DNA of 43,372 bases from a virus: IMG/VR virus record IMGVR_UViG_3300025648_000042, positions 1-43,372 of that record. One strand, written 5' to 3'. The stretch's first letter is position 1. Each line of letters begins with the position of its first letter. A program made the position numbers and the translations under genes. Below, one piece after another: positions 9,667 through 40,819 of this stretch. The notes under the pieces were generated by a model. The model saw only the letters and a list, made by a program, of their open reading frames with translations. It ran no database searches and had not been told where the DNA came from.

Positions 9667-10128
9667 TCAATGCGACACCTGCGGGCTCACTGCCCAGGTG
9701 TGGGCATCTTCTGCGTAGCTGGCTGCGGCGAAGCACCGGGTTGCGATTGCAACCAGTTCCTGAAATCCGCCTGCAACTGGCTGGACGATGGGGGACTTTC
9801 CTTGAGGAACGGCGGCGGGTCGCACTTGGTCACAACGACCGGGGCCAGGGTTGGCCCGCAGGCGGTCAAGCTCATCAGCGGTGCGCTGCAACTCAGTGCC
9901 AACAGCAGTAATTTCTTGGGAATGCACCGCATGGGTCGTCTCCAGCGTGGTGTTGAGATTGGCGATGGCGATATCATGGGATGCCTTGGCCTGGGTCATC
10001 TCGCCATTCATCGTGGCGATCTGGGTCTTGTAGTCGGCGATGGTCGCCCGTTCCCACATGCCCCAGGTCAGGAGCAACAAGCACGCCACTACGGCGGCAC
10101 CGATTGCATAGAGATTGATGCTCGGCAT
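9667..10128 (-). CDS. Inner-membrane spanin (Rz-like)
   Basis: 153 residues from the ATG at 10128, two bases after the preceding stop. One N-terminal membrane span (LYAIGAAVVACLLLLTWGMW) followed by a periplasmic coiled coil (about residues 25-95: ADYKTQIATMNGEMTQAKAS...) is the i-spanin layout. A lipoprotein gene with an o-spanin pattern is embedded in another frame inside it, which is the classical Rz/Rz1 arrangement. With the o-spanin it would fuse inner and outer membranes at the last step of lysis, which indicates a Gram-negative host. Confidence 0.85.
   Translation of the reverse strand: MPSINLYAIGAAVVACLLLLTWGMWERATIADYKTQIATMNGEMTQAKASHDIAIANLNTTLETTHAVHSQEITAVGTELQRTADELDRLRANPGPGRCDQVRPAAVPQGKSPIVQPVAGGFQELVAIATRCFAAASYAEDAHTWAVSPQVSH
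9687..9932 (-). CDS. Outer-membrane lipoprotein spanin (Rz1-like), embedded
   Basis: 81 residues from the ATG at 9932, entirely inside the i-spanin gene in a different frame. The signal peptide (MRCIPKKLLLLALSCSAPLM) ends in a lipobox LTAC, so the mature protein would start at the lipidated cysteine. The mature part is proline/serine/glutamine-rich (CDPPPFLKESPPSSS...), as in Rz1. It would sit in the outer membrane facing the periplasm and pair with the i-spanin coiled coil. An earlier in-frame start at 9977 would spoil the signal peptide. Confidence 0.85.
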   Translation of the reverse strand: MRCIPKKLLLLALSCSAPLMSLTACGPTLAPVVVTKCDPPPFLKESPPSSSQLQADFRNWLQSQPGASPQPATQKMPTPGQ

Positions 10129-10129
10129 T

Positions 10130-10354
10130 TCAGTTCCCCTCGGGCGGCGTTGCCCCGAAATAGTATCCGACCACACTCCCCGCGTGGCCGTTGATCCCCG
10201 TGACCACCGCCGTGATGATCGACGCCACAATACCAGCTTCGGGGCCGGGGAGAGTAGCCCAATTAATACAGATGACGAGCGCGAGCGCGGAGGCGTCGAG
10301 GACCGCCAGCATGACCAGGATGATCACACCGATGGCAAGCTTGTGCTCGTGCAT
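10130..10354 (-). CDS. Small membrane protein, holin candidate
   Basis: 74 residues from the ATG at 10354; a GTG at 10369 overlapping the lysozyme stop would add five residues (MRSLS). Two membrane spans are visible: KLAIGVIILVMLAVLDASAL running into ALVICI, and GIVASIITAVVTGI near the C-terminus, with a short polar C-terminal tail. Size, topology and its place between the lysozyme and the spanins fit a class II-type holin that releases the lysozyme across the inner membrane. Several other membrane proteins in this arm are also holin or antiholin candidates. Confidence 0.65.
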   Translation of the reverse strand: MHEHKLAIGVIILVMLAVLDASALALVICINWATLPGPEAGIVASIITAVVTGINGHAGSVVGYYFGATPPEGN

Positions 10355-10361
10355 GGAGAGG

Positions 10362-10808
10362 CTACGCACTGAACAGCTCCGCTTCCGCCGCTCGCCGCGC
10401 CGTCAGTCCCGGTAGCACTCGCCCTGCGGCATGATTCCACTTGCCGAACTCACCCGCCGCCGCATCGAACTCCCCCGCCTTGACGTGGGTCAGCAGCGTG
10501 CTTGTGGCGAAATTTCCGCCGCCGACATTGTAGACGAAGCTGATCAGTGCGCCGTATTGGTTATCGGTCAAACCAACTGCCCCAGTGAAGCGCAAGACCG
10601 TATCACCCGCCTTCTGAAGATCCGCAACGAGCCATTCTTCGGCGTCGTCCTGGGTGATCGTCAGGCCCTTGAAGATGTTGGGACCGGTGCAGCCATAGCC
10701 GATGGTCCACGGTGCACCGCCAGTGCCAGGGTCGGGATAAGCCAACAGCTCGCAACCCTCGAATGACTTCACCAAGTCAACGGCGCATTGTGGGACAGGG
10801 CGGCTCAT
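10362..10808 (-). CDS. Phage lysozyme (T4-type, glycoside hydrolase family 24)
   Basis: 148 residues from the ATG at 10808; a GTG at 10826 would add six residues. The catalytic triad pattern of GH24 is present: Glu17 in KSFEGCELLAYPDP, Asp26, and Thr35 in GGAPWTIGYG. The later QYGALISFVYNVG and LPGLTARRAAE segments are also typical. It cleaves the MurNAc-GlcNAc bonds of peptidoglycan. There is no signal peptide, so it needs a holin for export; candidates lie on both sides. The 87 bases upstream (10809-10895) hold no clear gene. Confidence 0.92.
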   Translation of the reverse strand: MSRPVPQCAVDLVKSFEGCELLAYPDPGTGGAPWTIGYGCTGPNIFKGLTITQDDAEEWLVADLQKAGDTVLRFTGAVGLTDNQYGALISFVYNVGGGNFATSTLLTHVKAGEFDAAAGEFGKWNHAAGRVLPGLTARRAAEAELFSA

Positions 10809-10895
10809 CGCACGACACCCCAGCACAAAAGGTAAAGACGCTTCCAGGTAGCGTAGCAGCGCGCTATCTGGATGTGGATAGGGATCAGCGGCACT

Positions 10896-10982
10896 CTAAC
10901 CATGAGGGTCCTCATTGATATAAGCACAAGCCACGACATAGATGGCAATCAGGACGATGGCGTGGCACCCGATGGAAATCAT
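10896..10982 (-). CDS. 28-residue membrane peptide
   Basis: ATG at 10982 overlaps the stop of the gene before it (ATGA), and the frame ends at 10896. The peptide MISIGCHAIVLIAIYVVACA followed by YINEDPHG is one membrane span with a short acidic tail. Position in the lysis region and tight coupling support it; it is too short for a family call. It may be a lysis modulator such as an antiholin, which is inference only. Confidence 0.5.
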   Translation of the reverse strand: MISIGCHAIVLIAIYVVACAYINEDPHG

Positions 10983-11134
10983 TTGCGATTCTCCAACGCA
11001 TGAGTTCGCCCCATCAGTTTCCGAATGACTTCGTCTTGTAGCACCAGTTCCTTGCGCAGGCATGCGTGGGCATCGATAAGGCATCGCACGTCAACGCGCA
11101 ACTCTTTCAGCTCCTGCGTCAATGACTCGCTCAT
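10979..11134 (-). CDS. 51-residue coiled-coil protein
   Basis: ATG at 11134 overlaps the stop of the solute-binding-like gene (ATGA); the frame ends at 10979 and overlaps the next start in the same way. The sequence (MSESLTQELKELRVDVRCLI...) has leucine/valine heptads over most of its length. The chain of four-base overlaps on both sides is good evidence that this tiny gene is real. Small coiled-coil proteins are frequent in phage lysis regions. No family is recognised. Confidence 0.6.
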   Translation of the reverse strand: MSESLTQELKELRVDVRCLIDAHACLRKELVLQDEVIRKLMGRTHALENRK

Positions 11135-11913
11135 TTACTCACCTCCCGTTCCTGCCGACATGCTCCCGCTGCGACGTTAAATTTATCCAGAAAGCTTGGG
11201 TGGGTGTTCAAGAATGCATGAGAGAAATACGCCCCGTAAAGCTGATCCGAGGCGGGTTCGAGATGATAGATTCGCGTGTCAAACTCGAAATTGGGGCTAC
11301 CCACCGTGGCAGCGAGGGGTTCGTCCTCATACCCATTAACTCGTGACGCCCATTGTAGAATCAGTACATCCATGTAAATCCAGTCTACGTCCCAATCATG
11401 CAACGCCTTCACCAGTTGTGGGTTATCCGACGCTATCAGTGTAAAATGATAGGGACTAGCCTCAATGGTCTTTTGAATACCAGAGCCGGCCTTGACACCC
11501 CATCGCATATCCAGGTCACGATGGTCGCTGTCGTGATCCCTGCGGCGAACATAGTAAGCTCGACTCACATCGAGCGCGGTGGTCCAGGTGGCCCATTGAC
11601 TACGAGGGACGGTAAATAATGCTCCGAAGAACCCGTCAAACTTACCGTCTTTAGTATCCTGTTGCGCCTGTTCCCACTGTGACCCATTGACGATAGTTAG
11701 ATTGTAGTCCTGCCCCAGGCCATTCAAAGCGCAGCGCATAGTTTCGACGCTGGTGCCGCCGATGCTGCCATCGGGGTTAATCAGTTGGTAGGGCGGATAA
11801 ACCTGAGTGACGAGACGCAATGGTTCCGCTTCATGGAACAACGCCCAACCGACTGCTGCCACGGTTGAAAAAGCCGCAATCGACGTCGCTATGACCTTCG
11901 GGAAAGGGCGCAT
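11131..11913 (-). CDS. Periplasmic solute-binding-protein-like (SBP family 3) protein
   Basis: 260 residues. An N-terminal hydrophobic segment (VIATSIAAFSTVAAVGWALF) is a signal peptide or anchor without a lipobox. The next 100 residues match the start of family 3 substrate-binding proteins: PLRLVTQVYPPYQLINPDG, a G-x-SVET helix, then DGKFDGFFGALFTVPRSQWA. The second lobe is present (RWGVKAGSGIQKTIEAS..., DWIYMDVLILQWAS). Such proteins normally capture amino acids or signals in the periplasm for ABC transporters or sensor kinases. Here no transporter gene accompanies it, and it is locked into the lysis operon by overlaps at both ends. A phage role could be ligand sensing for lysis timing, blocking a host receptor, or a nutrient function; the sequence does not decide. 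Confidence 0.8.
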   Translation of the reverse strand: MRPFPKVIATSIAAFSTVAAVGWALFHEAEPLRLVTQVYPPYQLINPDGSIGGTSVETMRCALNGLGQDYNLTIVNGSQWEQAQQDTKDGKFDGFFGALFTVPRSQWATWTTALDVSRAYYVRRRDHDSDHRDLDMRWGVKAGSGIQKTIEASPYHFTLIASDNPQLVKALHDWDVDWIYMDVLILQWASRVNGYEDEPLAATVGSPNFEFDTRIYHLEPASDQLYGAYFSHAFLNTHPSFLDKFNVAAGACRQEREVSK

Positions 11914-12275
11914 CAGTGAATTTCCCCCGCAGCACGAAGCCGGTCATATTCTTGACGACAGAAAAGGTACCACCGCAACCGCCCGTCAAGACTTCGGTTC
12001 ACATACCGCCCGATGCCCCATACTACCGCAATCAATGCTATCTTAAGACGGATGCCTTGGCACGATACTGACCCACTCGACGACGCCACGAACTGCGTCA
12101 CAATGCATAGCACCGAAAAGAATAGAACCGATCCCGTTTCGTGGATTTCGCGCGCCGTCGCCAGTTCCGAGTGATGCCACAGCAACCAACTGGCTTGCAT
12201 GGCTATCTGACCATACTGGTAAATGACTATCGCCGAGCAAACCCACATCGCCAGCATGTCAAAGTCCATGCTCAT
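11913..12275 (-). CDS. Multi-pass membrane protein in the lysis region
   Basis: 120 residues from the ATG at 12275, overlapping the preceding stop (ATGA). Three hydrophobic segments are visible: about 6-32 (LAMWVCSAIVIYQYGQIAMQ...), 48-66 (SVLFFSVLCIVTQFVA) and 75-90 (RLKIALIAVVWGIGRYV), followed by a basic C-terminal tail (RLRWYLFCRQEYDRLRAA). It shares one base with the solute-binding-like gene, so the two are coupled and could work together at the inner membrane. It could be a holin-type protein, but three spans plus a long basic tail are not diagnostic. Confidence 0.68.
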   Translation of the reverse strand: MSMDFDMLAMWVCSAIVIYQYGQIAMQASWLLWHHSELATAREIHETGSVLFFSVLCIVTQFVASSSGSVSCQGIRLKIALIAVVWGIGRYVNRSLDGRLRWYLFCRQEYDRLRAAGEIH

Positions 12276-12691
12276 GACCGTTCCCCCGATGGGAGATAAG
12301 GCCGACCGTCTCGCCCCGTCTTGTGCAAGCATGCGGCTTCGAGTCGTCGGGTCATTTCGGCATTTTCACCTTTCAGCTTCTCGTAGCTGGTGGTGATCTT
12401 TGCGAGCAACCCCTTAGCTTCTTCGTACCCGGCAACCTTGTGGGTGAGGTCTGCGACTTTGGTTTCCAATGACCCAATATGAGTAGCTTGGTCTGTGATA
12501 ATCTTGTTGAGGCGGGTATTTTCCTCTTCGAGTTTCACCATGCGGGAGAACATGTGGGACTGGTATTCGGTCCCGAGCTTCTGACCGTCAGCACCGGCCT
12601 TGGTGGAAGCGATTAGCCCATAGAGTTTTGTGAAGGCGGCAAGCATCGCCGTCCCACCAATTCCCCCAATGCCAATTGCCTGCCAGTCCAC
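12272..12691 (-). CDS. Membrane-anchored coiled-coil protein
   Basis: 139 residues with a GTG start at 12691, one base after the preceding stop. A glycine/alanine-rich N-terminal span (IGIGGIGGTAMLAAFTKLYG) is followed by a long coiled coil (about 45-120: KLEEENTRLNKIITDQATHI..., LETKVADLTHKV). The layout is like an i-spanin or a membrane-tethered scaffold, but a complete Rz/Rz1 pair already exists at the operon end. Its relation to lysis is inferred only from position. Confidence 0.65.
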   Translation of the reverse strand: MDWQAIGIGGIGGTAMLAAFTKLYGLIASTKAGADGQKLGTEYQSHMFSRMVKLEEENTRLNKIITDQATHIGSLETKVADLTHKVAGYEEAKGLLAKITTSYEKLKGENAEMTRRLEAACLHKTGRDGRPYLPSGERS

Positions 12692-12692
12692 C

Positions 12693-12959
12693 CTAACACT
12701 CCGATTCCGGGAACAGCTTGAGCAATTCGCCCATGCGCTTATTCAATTGCTCGGCTATGGCGAGATGTTCCGCCATCCCATTTTCATCGTGCGCGAGATG
12801 CCGTGTAAACGCCTCGACCACAGTATCAAATTTCATCGCCCTGGTACGACCGTTATCCTCAATGCGCTCAAGCCGGTCGTTAATAGCTGTCCAATTTATC
12901 ACACAAACTTGGGTCATTTCTGGCTTTGGGCACACCCGCTGCCAGAATCGAGACCACAT
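12693..12959 (-). CDS. Small soluble helical protein
   Basis: 88 residues from the ATG at 12959, directly after the preceding stop; an internal ATG at 12917 is possible. The sequence is mostly helical (NDRLERIEDNGRTRAMKFD, AIAEQLNKRMGELLKLF) with no membrane span or known motif. It lies between two membrane-protein genes in the lysis region and ends one base before the next GTG start. Confidence 0.6.
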   Translation of the reverse strand: MWSRFWQRVCPKPEMTQVCVINWTAINDRLERIEDNGRTRAMKFDTVVEAFTRHLAHDENGMAEHLAIAEQLNKRMGELLKLFPESEC

Positions 12960-12962
12960 CTG

Positions 12963-13421
12963 TCACCATCCCCGAAGGAGAGGTGCCATTCCAAAAGCAG
13001 CGCCCGTGCAAAATCCCAGGACTTCCTCAAACATCATATGCGGATCAGCAGGGTCGGTCGCGCTCTTGGCCCATTTGAGAACGAGGAAGACCGGCGGCAT
13101 GAACAGCAACGCTTCCCAGCAACCCGTGATGCCGAATAGCACCGGGAACACGAGGCAATAGCGCGCCGCGCCGAGCCACAGATTTGAGAATACTTGTCCC
13201 AACGTTGCGTTGATATAGAAGACGGCAGTAAGTGCGACGGCTAGCCCCGTGCCCATCCACCAGTCGGGGGCGTAAACGTAGAACGCCGGAACGCAGCAGA
13301 TGGCATAAAGCGCCATGGCTTCCCATCGCTTGGTGCCGGGAGCGCCGCCCTGGATGTGCCGCCCGTAGCCGCCAGCGATGCCGCACGCGATGGTTACGGC
13401 AACGATGATTGAAGGATTCAT
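12963..13421 (-). CDS. Polytopic membrane protein of unknown function
   Basis: 152 residues from the ATG at 13421; a GTG at 13427 overlapping the preceding stop would add two residues. At least four hydrophobic segments are visible, including SIIVAVTIACGIAGGYG, ALYAICCVPAFYVYAP, TGLAVALTAVFYINA, CLVFPVLFGITGCW and ALLFMPPVFLVL. Four membrane-associated genes cluster here upstream of the lysozyme. It is larger than a typical holin, and I do not recognise a family. It may alter the host membrane late in infection. Confidence 0.65.
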   Translation of the reverse strand: MNPSIIVAVTIACGIAGGYGRHIQGGAPGTKRWEAMALYAICCVPAFYVYAPDWWMGTGLAVALTAVFYINATLGQVFSNLWLGAARYCLVFPVLFGITGCWEALLFMPPVFLVLKWAKSATDPADPHMMFEEVLGFCTGAAFGMAPLLRGW

Positions 13422-13423
13422 GG

Positions 13424-13708
13424 TCACAATATCCCCGTTGGCAGAACAAGAAACACGGACTCGGCGACTTGAGCATTAGCACCCGTGCCAACCCAGCGCT
13501 GAGTATATGTCCCCGACACCGTGGCTGTAAATGATGCTGAGTATTGGCCTACGGTCACAGGAATGACAGTGGGATGTGCTATAGTTCCGTCAGGGACTTG
13601 CACCTCAAGAGATACCATGGTCGGATCAACCAGCACACCGGATGTTGGTGAGGTGAATGCGGCAGACAGCGTAATGGAACTGCCCGGATAATATTGGGAG
13701 GTTATCAT
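13424..13708 (-). CDS. Small Ig-like/beta-sandwich structural protein
   Basis: 94 residues, ATG at 13708 sharing one base with the preceding stop (TAATG). The sequence (PGSSITLSAAFTSPTSGVLV, then VGQYSASFTATVSGTYTQRW) reads as alternating beta strands. It resembles small phage proteins with an Ig-like fold in which a Y-x-x-x-F-T-x-x-x-x-G-x-Y-x-x-R-W pattern recurs. It is probably a surface or fibre-associated structural protein. It marks the boundary between fibre genes and the lysis region. Confidence 0.65.
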   Translation of the reverse strand: MITSQYYPGSSITLSAAFTSPTSGVLVDPTMVSLEVQVPDGTIAHPTVIPVTVGQYSASFTATVSGTYTQRWVGTGANAQVAESVFLVLPTGIL

Positions 13709-37648: not shown

Positions 37649-38710
37649 CTACACTTTTCCCACTTTACTTAACGCTGCGTCAAGTTGTGAATGGGTCGAG
37701 GACTTTTCCCAGAAAGAAACGGGCGCAACACTATCGCTTCTAATTTCTTCGCTGGTAACACCGACCGGATCACTTCCCTTATCCCACACTCCAACCGCAC
37801 ATACGGCTAAATGGTCGAGAAGTGAAGGCTTGCCTTCAATAAGCAGAGTTGAACCGTCTTCGAGCGTCATCTTGTCATTCACGCCCGAACCACGGAAGAC
37901 CACGGCGGGGGATGTGGACAATTGCTCGTCAGCCATCATTTGCGCGGCAGGCTGATCGTAAATCTTAGCGATGGCCCATACTTCGTCGCCCTTGATGTAT
38001 GGCATAAAGACGGTGCCGATAATTCGGTCGGCAAATTCCTTGGTCGTCAGCACGTCAGTCGGCGGATGCTCGATAATGACCGGAAGACCATTGCATCGCG
38101 CCAAGAATTCATCGTTGAGATAAATCTCGGGGTTGCGCATGACGAACTCATCCAGCGCTTGGCGGAACGCAACACCCGTCCCAGTAATGCGGATATCGAA
38201 CAGGCTGATATTTTCGTAGACTTGCGGGGAAGTGAGGCGACCAGCCACAATGGCGCGAGCAATTCCAAGCTCGTCCATGTCGAAGCGGTCCAGCGCAATT
38301 TGGCACCCAGGGTGAAGCGGCTGCGGCGGCTGGTCAATCGGTGCCCACGCGTAACCCACATGTTCCGATTCAAGCTCGGGAATGAATTGCTCGGCGACGG
38401 GTTGCAGGAAGGTGGTGAAGTCTACCGTTTCACCGATTGCGGCAGATCCAGGAAGGGGACTGTCGGCAGCCTCAGCAGCGTTGCCCATCCCTACATTCTG
38501 ACTGCGACACCAGAGCTTCCTAGCACCGTCAGGCAGGTGCCCAATTTCTTCAATCGTTTCACGCTCGGCGGTTTCTTCGGGCGTTTCGTCGCCATCAGTC
38601 TTACCGCCGGGGAAGCACCAGCATCCGGGATAATCGCCCCCAGCACCCCTCAGCAGAAACAGGGCGTGCTTGTTATTCGTGAAGAGGATGCCAGCCGCGT
38701 GGATGGTCAT
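37649..38710 (-). CDS. Nudix hydrolase domain fused to DUF2213 putative prohead protease
   Basis: 353 residues. The first 140 residues are a Nudix hydrolase with a complete Nudix box, Gly36-x5-Glu42-x7-Arg50-Glu51-x-x-Glu54-Glu55-x-Gly57 (GKTDGDETPEETAERETIEE). From about 165 the protein matches DUF2213 (NPEIYLNDEFLARCNGLPVI, an EHPP segment with a candidate catalytic His, and EQLSTSPAVVF with a candidate Ser), thought to be the head maturation protease of DUF1073/DUF2184 phages. The Nudix part could hydrolyse nucleotides such as oxidised or alarmone species. Two unrelated activities in one chain within the head operon is notable. The 65 bases after it contain no gene. Confidence 0.82.
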   Translation of the reverse strand: MTIHAAGILFTNNKHALFLLRGAGGDYPGCWCFPGGKTDGDETPEETAERETIEEIGHLPDGARKLWCRSQNVGMGNAAEAADSPLPGSAAIGETVDFTTFLQPVAEQFIPELESEHVGYAWAPIDQPPQPLHPGCQIALDRFDMDELGIARAIVAGRLTSPQVYENISLFDIRITGTGVAFRQALDEFVMRNPEIYLNDEFLARCNGLPVIIEHPPTDVLTTKEFADRIIGTVFMPYIKGDEVWAIAKIYDQPAAQMMADEQLSTSPAVVFRGSGVNDKMTLEDGSTLLIEGKPSLLDHLAVCAVGVWDKGSDPVGVTSEEIRSDSVAPVSFWEKSSTHSQLDAALSKVGKV

Positions 38711-40348: not shown

Positions 40349-40819
40349 TTACCGACCAGCCCCTCCCCCCACTTTTTTCATAGGGTGACCATGTTCGGTA
40401 ATCAGCGTCTCGCCTTCACGGGCATCCTTGCGCACCACCGAGTCAAACCCAGCGCGCCACGCCTTGCCCAGCACATGACCGGGCGGATGTGGGCAGTCGC
40501 TGCGGTCCTTACCGCCCTTGGCAAACGACTCACCGTCGCGCTTGGCCTTCTCCAGCGCATCGACTCGCTCGGCGACTTTGGTAACACCTTCGACGACTGA
40601 ATCCACACGGGAATGCCATTCGGTAGAATCACCCTTGCGAATGGCGAATGGTGTTGCGCCTTTCACGGCGGCACCGACTTGCGGCGTCACCTTGGCGACC
40701 GAAATACCAGCCTCGCGCGCCTTAATCTCAGCTTCCATTTTAGCGCGGGTCTCACCCGTCTCAGAGCCTACAGAAGCTTTCAGTTCCTTGAGGGTATATG
40801 ACGGGAATGCGCGGGCCAT
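40349..40819 (-). CDS. Head-region coiled-coil protein, C-terminus probably frameshifted
   Basis: 156 residues in the uninterrupted frame, ATG at 40819 with GGAGG upstream. N-terminus (PSYTLKELKASVGSETGETR) is a short conserved helix module; then WHSRVDSVVEGVTKVAERVD followed by ALEKAK as in the 38711 protein; then GHVLGKAWRAGFDSVVRKDA. The frame ends weakly (KKVGGGAGR). The frame one base back from a G6 run (40365-40370) continues as RGWSVNGKIVESLEDARKLA and stops at 40302, giving 172 residues. Either a one-base deletion/base-calling error or -1 slippage at G-GGG-GGA, which has correct phasing, explains this. Confidence 0.65.
   Translation of the reverse strand: MARAFPSYTLKELKASVGSETGETRAKMEAEIKAREAGISVAKVTPQVGAAVKGATPFAIRKGDSTEWHSRVDSVVEGVTKVAERVDALEKAKRDGESFAKGGKDRSDCPHPPGHVLGKAWRAGFDSVVRKDAREGETLITEHGHPMKKVGGGAGR

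Follow-up and report, generated by a model that had tools for sequence, protein, structure and literature searches.

Introduction

Certain small molecules, arbitrium peptides and quorum-sensing autoinducers among them, are known to serve phages as signals; to our knowledge, a phage receptor derived from a periplasmic binding protein has not been described. The amino-acid solute-binding proteins (SBPs) of ABC importers (HisJ, ArgT/LAO, GlnH and ArtJ; PF00497) adopt the type 2 two-lobed fold and bind their ligands through residues that include R77 and D161 of ArgT, which hold, respectively, the ligand carboxylate and amino group. Among phage membrane systems, RI of phage T4 is an anchored periplasmic antiholin that acts on the holin T, and class I holins are multi-transmembrane (multi-TM) proteins. 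The contractile (phage-tail-like) injection system of Streptomyces includes the membrane protein CisA, which is single-pass and N-in, contains an SBP-like periplasmic domain and has been proposed to function as a stress sensor (PMC12237407). CisA apart, no papers on phage-encoded SBPs or on SBPs linked to type VI secretion systems (T6SS) were found in the open-access literature searched.

Here we analyze a phage-encoded SBP that resembles the ABC-importer proteins in its predicted type 2 two-lobed fold, in the ligand positions equivalent to R77 and D161 and in a GlnH-like VKxG(S/T)G loop, but differs from them in the lack of ABC genes nearby, the probable N-terminal anchor, the cysteine pair C61/C252 and the coupling to genes for membrane and coiled-coil proteins. 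As with T4 RI and class I holins, the locus seems to combine an anchored periplasmic protein with a multi-TM neighbor in the vicinity of lysis genes, but RI is small and is not an SBP, and the lysis linkage of the phage cassette is not conserved between the two phages that carry it. CisA is a precedent for an anchored SBP-like sensor but differs in having a long N-terminal cytoplasmic region and in serving an injection system (PMC12237407).

A solute-binding protein gene in a contractile-tailed phage

The window, that is, the whole stretch of DNA analyzed here, corresponds to a 43,372-base IMG/VR record and belongs to a contractile-tailed phage, with sheath, baseplate and head genes that match PHROGs. 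The capsid protein of this phage shares 60% identity with its counterparts in Pantoea phage PdC23 and Klebsiella phage Chronis, and 80 IMG/VR loci carry a capsid protein of the same type at 71-81%. Near the portal gene, the window encodes a 156-aa protein with a ribosome-modulation-factor-like stretch (40349-40819, minus strand; PF04957, E 1.2e-5, slightly under the cut-off), and a head gene at 37649-38710 (minus strand) resembles nudix hydrolases and head maturation protease/portal families.

The gene at 11131-11913 (minus strand) encodes a 260-aa protein, for which the sequence-only reading had proposed a family 3 SBP pattern in both lobes. The match to the Pfam family SBP_bac_3 passes the cut-off marginally (26.8 bits compared with 26.4; E 4.9e-6) but is backed by a profile of 16 homologues that retrieves 3tql, an arginine-binding protein, with a match spanning both lobes (E 1.2e-9), along with other amino-acid SBPs. 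A tblastn search of plasmids with this protein leads to full-length bacterial SBPs, with the best match covering 96% of the protein (E 4e-14), and PHROGs include no family for it. The AlphaFold model produced with the homologue alignment has a mean pLDDT of 68.8, with lobe 1 mostly above 85 and lobe 2 at ∼40-55; the model produced without the alignment (pLDDT 38.7) is unusable. Comparison of the former model with the PDB yields 685 nearly full-length fold matches at E<=1e-3, with TM-scores of 0.43-0.54 and 11-18% sequence identity, the top ones being amino-acid SBPs and related receptors, whereas in BFVD, the sole strong matches are giant-virus proteins (amino-acid transporter/SBP). These searches confirm the proposed identity: by Pfam, profile and fold comparison, the protein is a family 3 SBP with the predicted type 2 two-lobed fold, although the second lobe is modelled poorly.

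The SBP gene is part of a cassette. The first gene of this cassette encodes an 88-aa protein (12693-12959, minus strand) and is followed by the gene for a 139-aa protein with one N-terminal TM segment and then a coiled coil (12272-12691, minus strand) and by the gene for a membrane protein of ∼120 aa (11913-12275, minus strand) with three hydrophobic segments and, according to the positive-inside rule, a probable N-out/C-in topology. For the latter gene, a start at 12275 is more likely than one at 12332 because the start codon then shares an ATGA with the stop codon of the preceding gene, 12272-12691. The overlaps that had been noted between the SBP gene and its neighbors are real, both being ATGA, with the membrane-protein gene at 11913 and, at 11134, with the gene for a 51-aa predicted coiled-coil protein (10979-11134, minus strand). 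Promoter-like and terminator-like sites in the window are little above shuffled sequence. Just upstream of the cassette, there is a gene for a 154-aa protein with about five hydrophobic segments and no family match (12963-13427, minus strand).

The same cassette in an unrelated phage

An alignment-based scan identified a second viral SBP, 47% identical to that of the window phage (E 4e-70), in IMGVR_UViG_3300006033_000878 (L120/L121), a 21 kb contig fragment. The two-sequence alignment was needed, as single-sequence scans of viral and genome contigs with the SBP yielded no relative. Neither a second alignment scan nor degenerate patterns based on the TAREI motif and on DGFFGAL revealed a third phage, and INPHARED contains no relative of the SBP or of the cassette membrane proteins; the cassette is known from two phages only.

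In the second phage, genes for a 91-aa protein, a 134-aa protein (TM segment and coiled coil) and a 126-aa membrane protein precede the SBP gene, in the same order and with the same build as in the window, and in both phages, most cassette genes overlap the next one; no counterpart of the 51-aa coiled-coil gene was found in this locus. When the proteins of the two phages were compared pairwise with 1000 shuffles, the SBP, membrane-protein and coiled-coil pairs scored above all shuffles, the similarity of the coiled-coil pair being inflated by composition, whereas the similarity of the 88-aa and 91-aa proteins is weak, with 6 of the 1000 shuffles scoring as high. The membrane proteins are 30% identical over 60 aa and both contain the TAREI motif, although that of the second phage has only two clear hydrophobic segments on the Kyte-Doolittle scale. 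Thus, the suspected link between the SBP and the adjacent membrane-protein gene is genuine, given that the same membrane-protein and coiled-coil genes precede a 47% identical SBP in a phage that is unrelated to the window phage.

The second phage is related to Achromobacter phages JWF and 2-1, Caulobacter phage Seuss and Xylophilus phage Lumi. Its cassette sits between the portal gene and the phrog_37797 gene, not beside lysis genes. In JWF, 2-1 and Lumi, nothing but a short junction (52 bp in Lumi, 78-79 bp in the two Achromobacter phages) separates the portal gene from the phrog_37797 gene, or the gene in the equivalent position, that follows it, and it is this junction that the cassette fills. 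Directly 3' of the SBP gene of the second phage (approximately 10707-10738 of L121), there is a perfect inverted repeat built on ATACTAGTAT, which may represent a terminator or mark where the inserted cassette ends.

Ligand pocket and N-terminal segment

Alignment with HisJ, ArgT and GlnH of Escherichia coli places R104 and D182 of the SBP, a pair common to both phage proteins, at the positions of R77 and D161 of ArgT/HisJ, and the loop VK(A/K)GSG of the phage SBPs corresponds to VKSGTG of GlnH. The ligand-binding cleft, singled out for checking by the sequence-only reading, thus keeps the Arg/Asp pair of amino-acid SBPs in both phages, and the pocket (R104, K141, S144-G145 and D182) is apparently intact and of the amino-acid type, judging from this alignment. 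The cysteines C61 and C252 are conserved in both phage SBPs and in all T6SS-linked relatives discussed below but are absent from HisJ, ArgT and GlnH; this conservation is consistent with a periplasmic disulfide. The segment around residues 202-220 is specific to the phage pair.

Both phage SBPs contain an N-terminal hydrophobic segment (residues 7-25 in the window and 23-41 in the second phage), in support of the earlier suggestion of a signal-like N-terminus and of an exported or membrane-anchored location. Neither shows a clear A-x-A motif immediately ahead of its mature domain, in which they differ from most of their relatives, so by-eye reading of the sequences, as opposed to a signal-peptide predictor, makes an N-terminal signal anchor likely for both; the segment of the window SBP could instead be cleaved (G-W-A).

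A portable accessory module

The cassette deviates in base composition from the structural genes compared: in the window, GC is 0.51-0.55 in the cassette genes versus 0.60-0.62; in the second phage, GC3 is 0.62-0.71 versus 0.79; and in both phages, both measures are below those of the structural genes. Insertion between genes that are adjacent in relatives, the other hallmark of ‘morons', is found in the second phage. Because the same gene order recurs in an unrelated phage, where it fills the junction between genes that adjoin in the relatives, the cassette is, as far as can be judged by sequence comparison, a portable accessory (‘moron'-type) insertion of phage late operons.

Among the relatives of the window phage itself, the picture is different. 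No family 3 SBP was detected in any of the 50 whole records with the capsid gene, whereas the control genomes were positive. In ten relatives, homology to the window ends at the tail fibre gene, so that the 9-21 kb region is private to the window phage and no empty site can be derived there. The expectation that related phages would carry the same gene beside the same membrane-protein gene therefore failed for the 50 capsid-sharing records but held in a different phage lineage. Absence from close relatives and GC below that of the structural genes could also point to a recent random capture of a host SBP gene that is functionless in the phage. This origin is, however, highly improbable: it is contradicted by the unrelated phage, in which a 47% identical SBP follows the same series of genes; among ∼1,150 sampled genomes, there is no cellular gene closer than ∼25-30% to the phage pair; and the pocket, the cysteine pair and the phage-specific segment are conserved. 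The presence of the SBP with the same neighbors in the second lineage excludes a one-off capture, and the cassette gives the impression of serving the phage for a purpose instead of having been picked up by accident.

Cellular relatives and type VI secretion clusters

The sequence similarities make a clear case for kinship of the phage SBPs with stand-alone cellular SBPs. In 13 of the 15 genome loci identified, a stand-alone SBP gene within a T6SS cluster has clpV on one side and the FHA gene on the other, in a scan that was biased because the query was itself a T6SS sequence. A repeat scan of 399 genomes of the phylum, in which the two phage SBPs served as queries, gave nine matches. The five strongest, namely, the centre genome and the four strongest new ones (E 1e-18 to 1e-22), again adjoined the T6SS FHA gene, whereas the four weaker matches did not. 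Such stand-alone SBPs beside the FHA gene, often directly after clpV, are found in Vibrio, Oceanospirillum, Marinobacterium, Marinomonas and Rhodobacteraceae (L105-L115, L117, L119, L155-L158 and L098-L101).

The T6SS-cluster SBPs share with the phage proteins the TQ-(Y/W)-PYQ and GFF...R signatures, both cysteines and the lack of ABC genes, but are only ∼25-28% identical to them, mostly have Tyr or Asn at the position of D182, and, unlike the phage SBPs, mostly possess a plausible cleavable signal peptide; their neighbors also differ, the phage SBP genes being flanked by phage genes instead of clpV and FHA, so that the T6SS position is seen in the cellular relatives only. Descent of the phage SBPs from the T6SS-linked ones was considered as these are the best cellular matches. 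In the phylogenetic tree, however, the 17 T6SS sequences form one group (94/94) and the phage pair falls outside as a separate lineage, with long branches, and we do not claim such descent.

These comparisons bear on the possibility that the gene is an auxiliary metabolic one, whose product would collect amino acids for uptake by an ABC importer of the infected host. The amino-acid-type fold and pocket would suit this role, and viral transport SBPs are known, the best BFVD matches being the giant-virus proteins mentioned above. Nevertheless, a contribution to nutrient uptake is improbable. Neither a permease gene nor an ATPase gene of an ABC importer lies near the phage SBP gene. The Walker A plus LSGG(Q/E/M/L/H) motif pair, a pattern that detects HisP and GlnQ, is missing in the 43,372-base window and in L121, as well as in the flanks searched of 29 cellular relatives, which are themselves stand-alone SBPs. 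Furthermore, the phage SBP travels with membrane-protein and coiled-coil genes whose products match no ABC subunit family in Pfam, and it is probably anchored rather than free. The nutrient-gene role that had been listed among the options is, accordingly, weak.

Lysis control, exclusion or sensing

In the window, the SBP gene is followed by the 51-aa gene, a small TM ORF, the phage lysozyme (endolysin) gene (10362-10826, minus strand), a 79-aa two-TM ORF (10130-10369, minus strand) and Rz/Rz1-like ORFs. The Rz-like ORF (9667-10230, minus strand) matches PHROGs weakly (E 0.04), and an Rz1-like lipoprotein ORF (9687-9977, minus strand) is nested within it in another frame, in the classical Rz/Rz1 arrangement. 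The position of the SBP gene upstream of the lysozyme and the identity of the latter (Pfam E 3.2e-40) are as originally described, but the lysozyme is probably not part of the SBP cassette.

This arrangement invites an explanation in terms of lysis timing, in which the multi-TM protein would be holin-like and the anchored SBP would act as a periplasmic antiholin, like T4 RI for the holin T, with the block released when a ligand appears or disappears. The cassette is located upstream of the lysozyme and Rz/Rz1 genes, in the same direction and with overlapping genes, and the membrane partner, with three hydrophobic segments and the probable N-out/C-in topology, resembles class I holins in this respect. 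The location of the cassette of the second phage between the portal and phrog_37797 genes, away from lysis genes, however, implies that the lysis adjacency in the window is not constant and may be incidental, and thereby weakens the proposal that the SBP gates lysis through the adjacent membrane protein. Besides, a different two-TM ORF is already present next to the lysozyme gene of the window, and the cassette membrane protein matches none of the PHROG lysis families. On balance, a lysis-timing regulator of this kind is unlikely.

Superinfection exclusion or an envelope decoy, whereby the SBP and its partners would block the DNA entry of a second phage or occupy a host receptor or permease, appears to be a rather poor bet as well. 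In its favor, the second phage carries the cassette as a small accessory insert in an otherwise conserved structural operon, missing from the relatives, in the usual style of morons, and the membrane and periplasmic location would be appropriate. On the other hand, a simple block would not need the retained pocket residues, exclusion genes are not usually expressed from late operons, and Pfam and PHROGs searches reveal no similarity to known exclusion proteins.

The interpretation we prefer, with a probability of roughly 0.45, is that the SBP is a late-expressed, membrane-anchored periplasmic receptor or sensor, with the adjacent membrane and coiled-coil proteins as its partners. It builds on what the sequences show, namely, the SBP family and fold, the hydrophobic segment, the gene order in two unrelated phages and the vacant slot in the relatives of one of these. 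Lysis control ranks below this receptor interpretation because the lysis linkage is not conserved, superinfection exclusion because of the retained pocket and late expression, and nutrient uptake because the transporter genes are missing.

Under the receptor interpretation, the cassette would build a small complex in the host inner membrane, where the N-terminal helix would hold the SBP, with the two-lobed domain in the periplasm. The pocket residues suggest that an amino-acid-like ligand would cause the SBP to close. Its membrane partners would be the two proteins whose genes overlap in translation with its own, namely, the multi-TM protein and the TM/coiled-coil protein, and these might carry its open or closed state to the cytoplasmic side. 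The cassette would then serve in sensing or reception and not in uptake, and its output would most plausibly be an adjustment of lysis timing or the exclusion of a second phage.

Implications

A more ambitious and, at present, rather doubtful possibility is that the cassette represents a new kind of phage receptor, a mobile module in which a Venus-flytrap protein, set in the inner membrane of the host, would sense amino acids and pass its state through dedicated membrane and coiled-coil partners so as to decide lysis timing or block other phages. On the cellular side, no description of T6SS-linked SBPs was found in the open-access literature searched, and the stand-alone SBPs beside the FHA gene hint at a part of type VI secretion that, within that literature, is undescribed. 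For phages, a cassette that is conserved and whose amino-acid pocket is apparently intact would make it possible to test directly whether they sense periplasmic nutrients or cell-wall amino acids.
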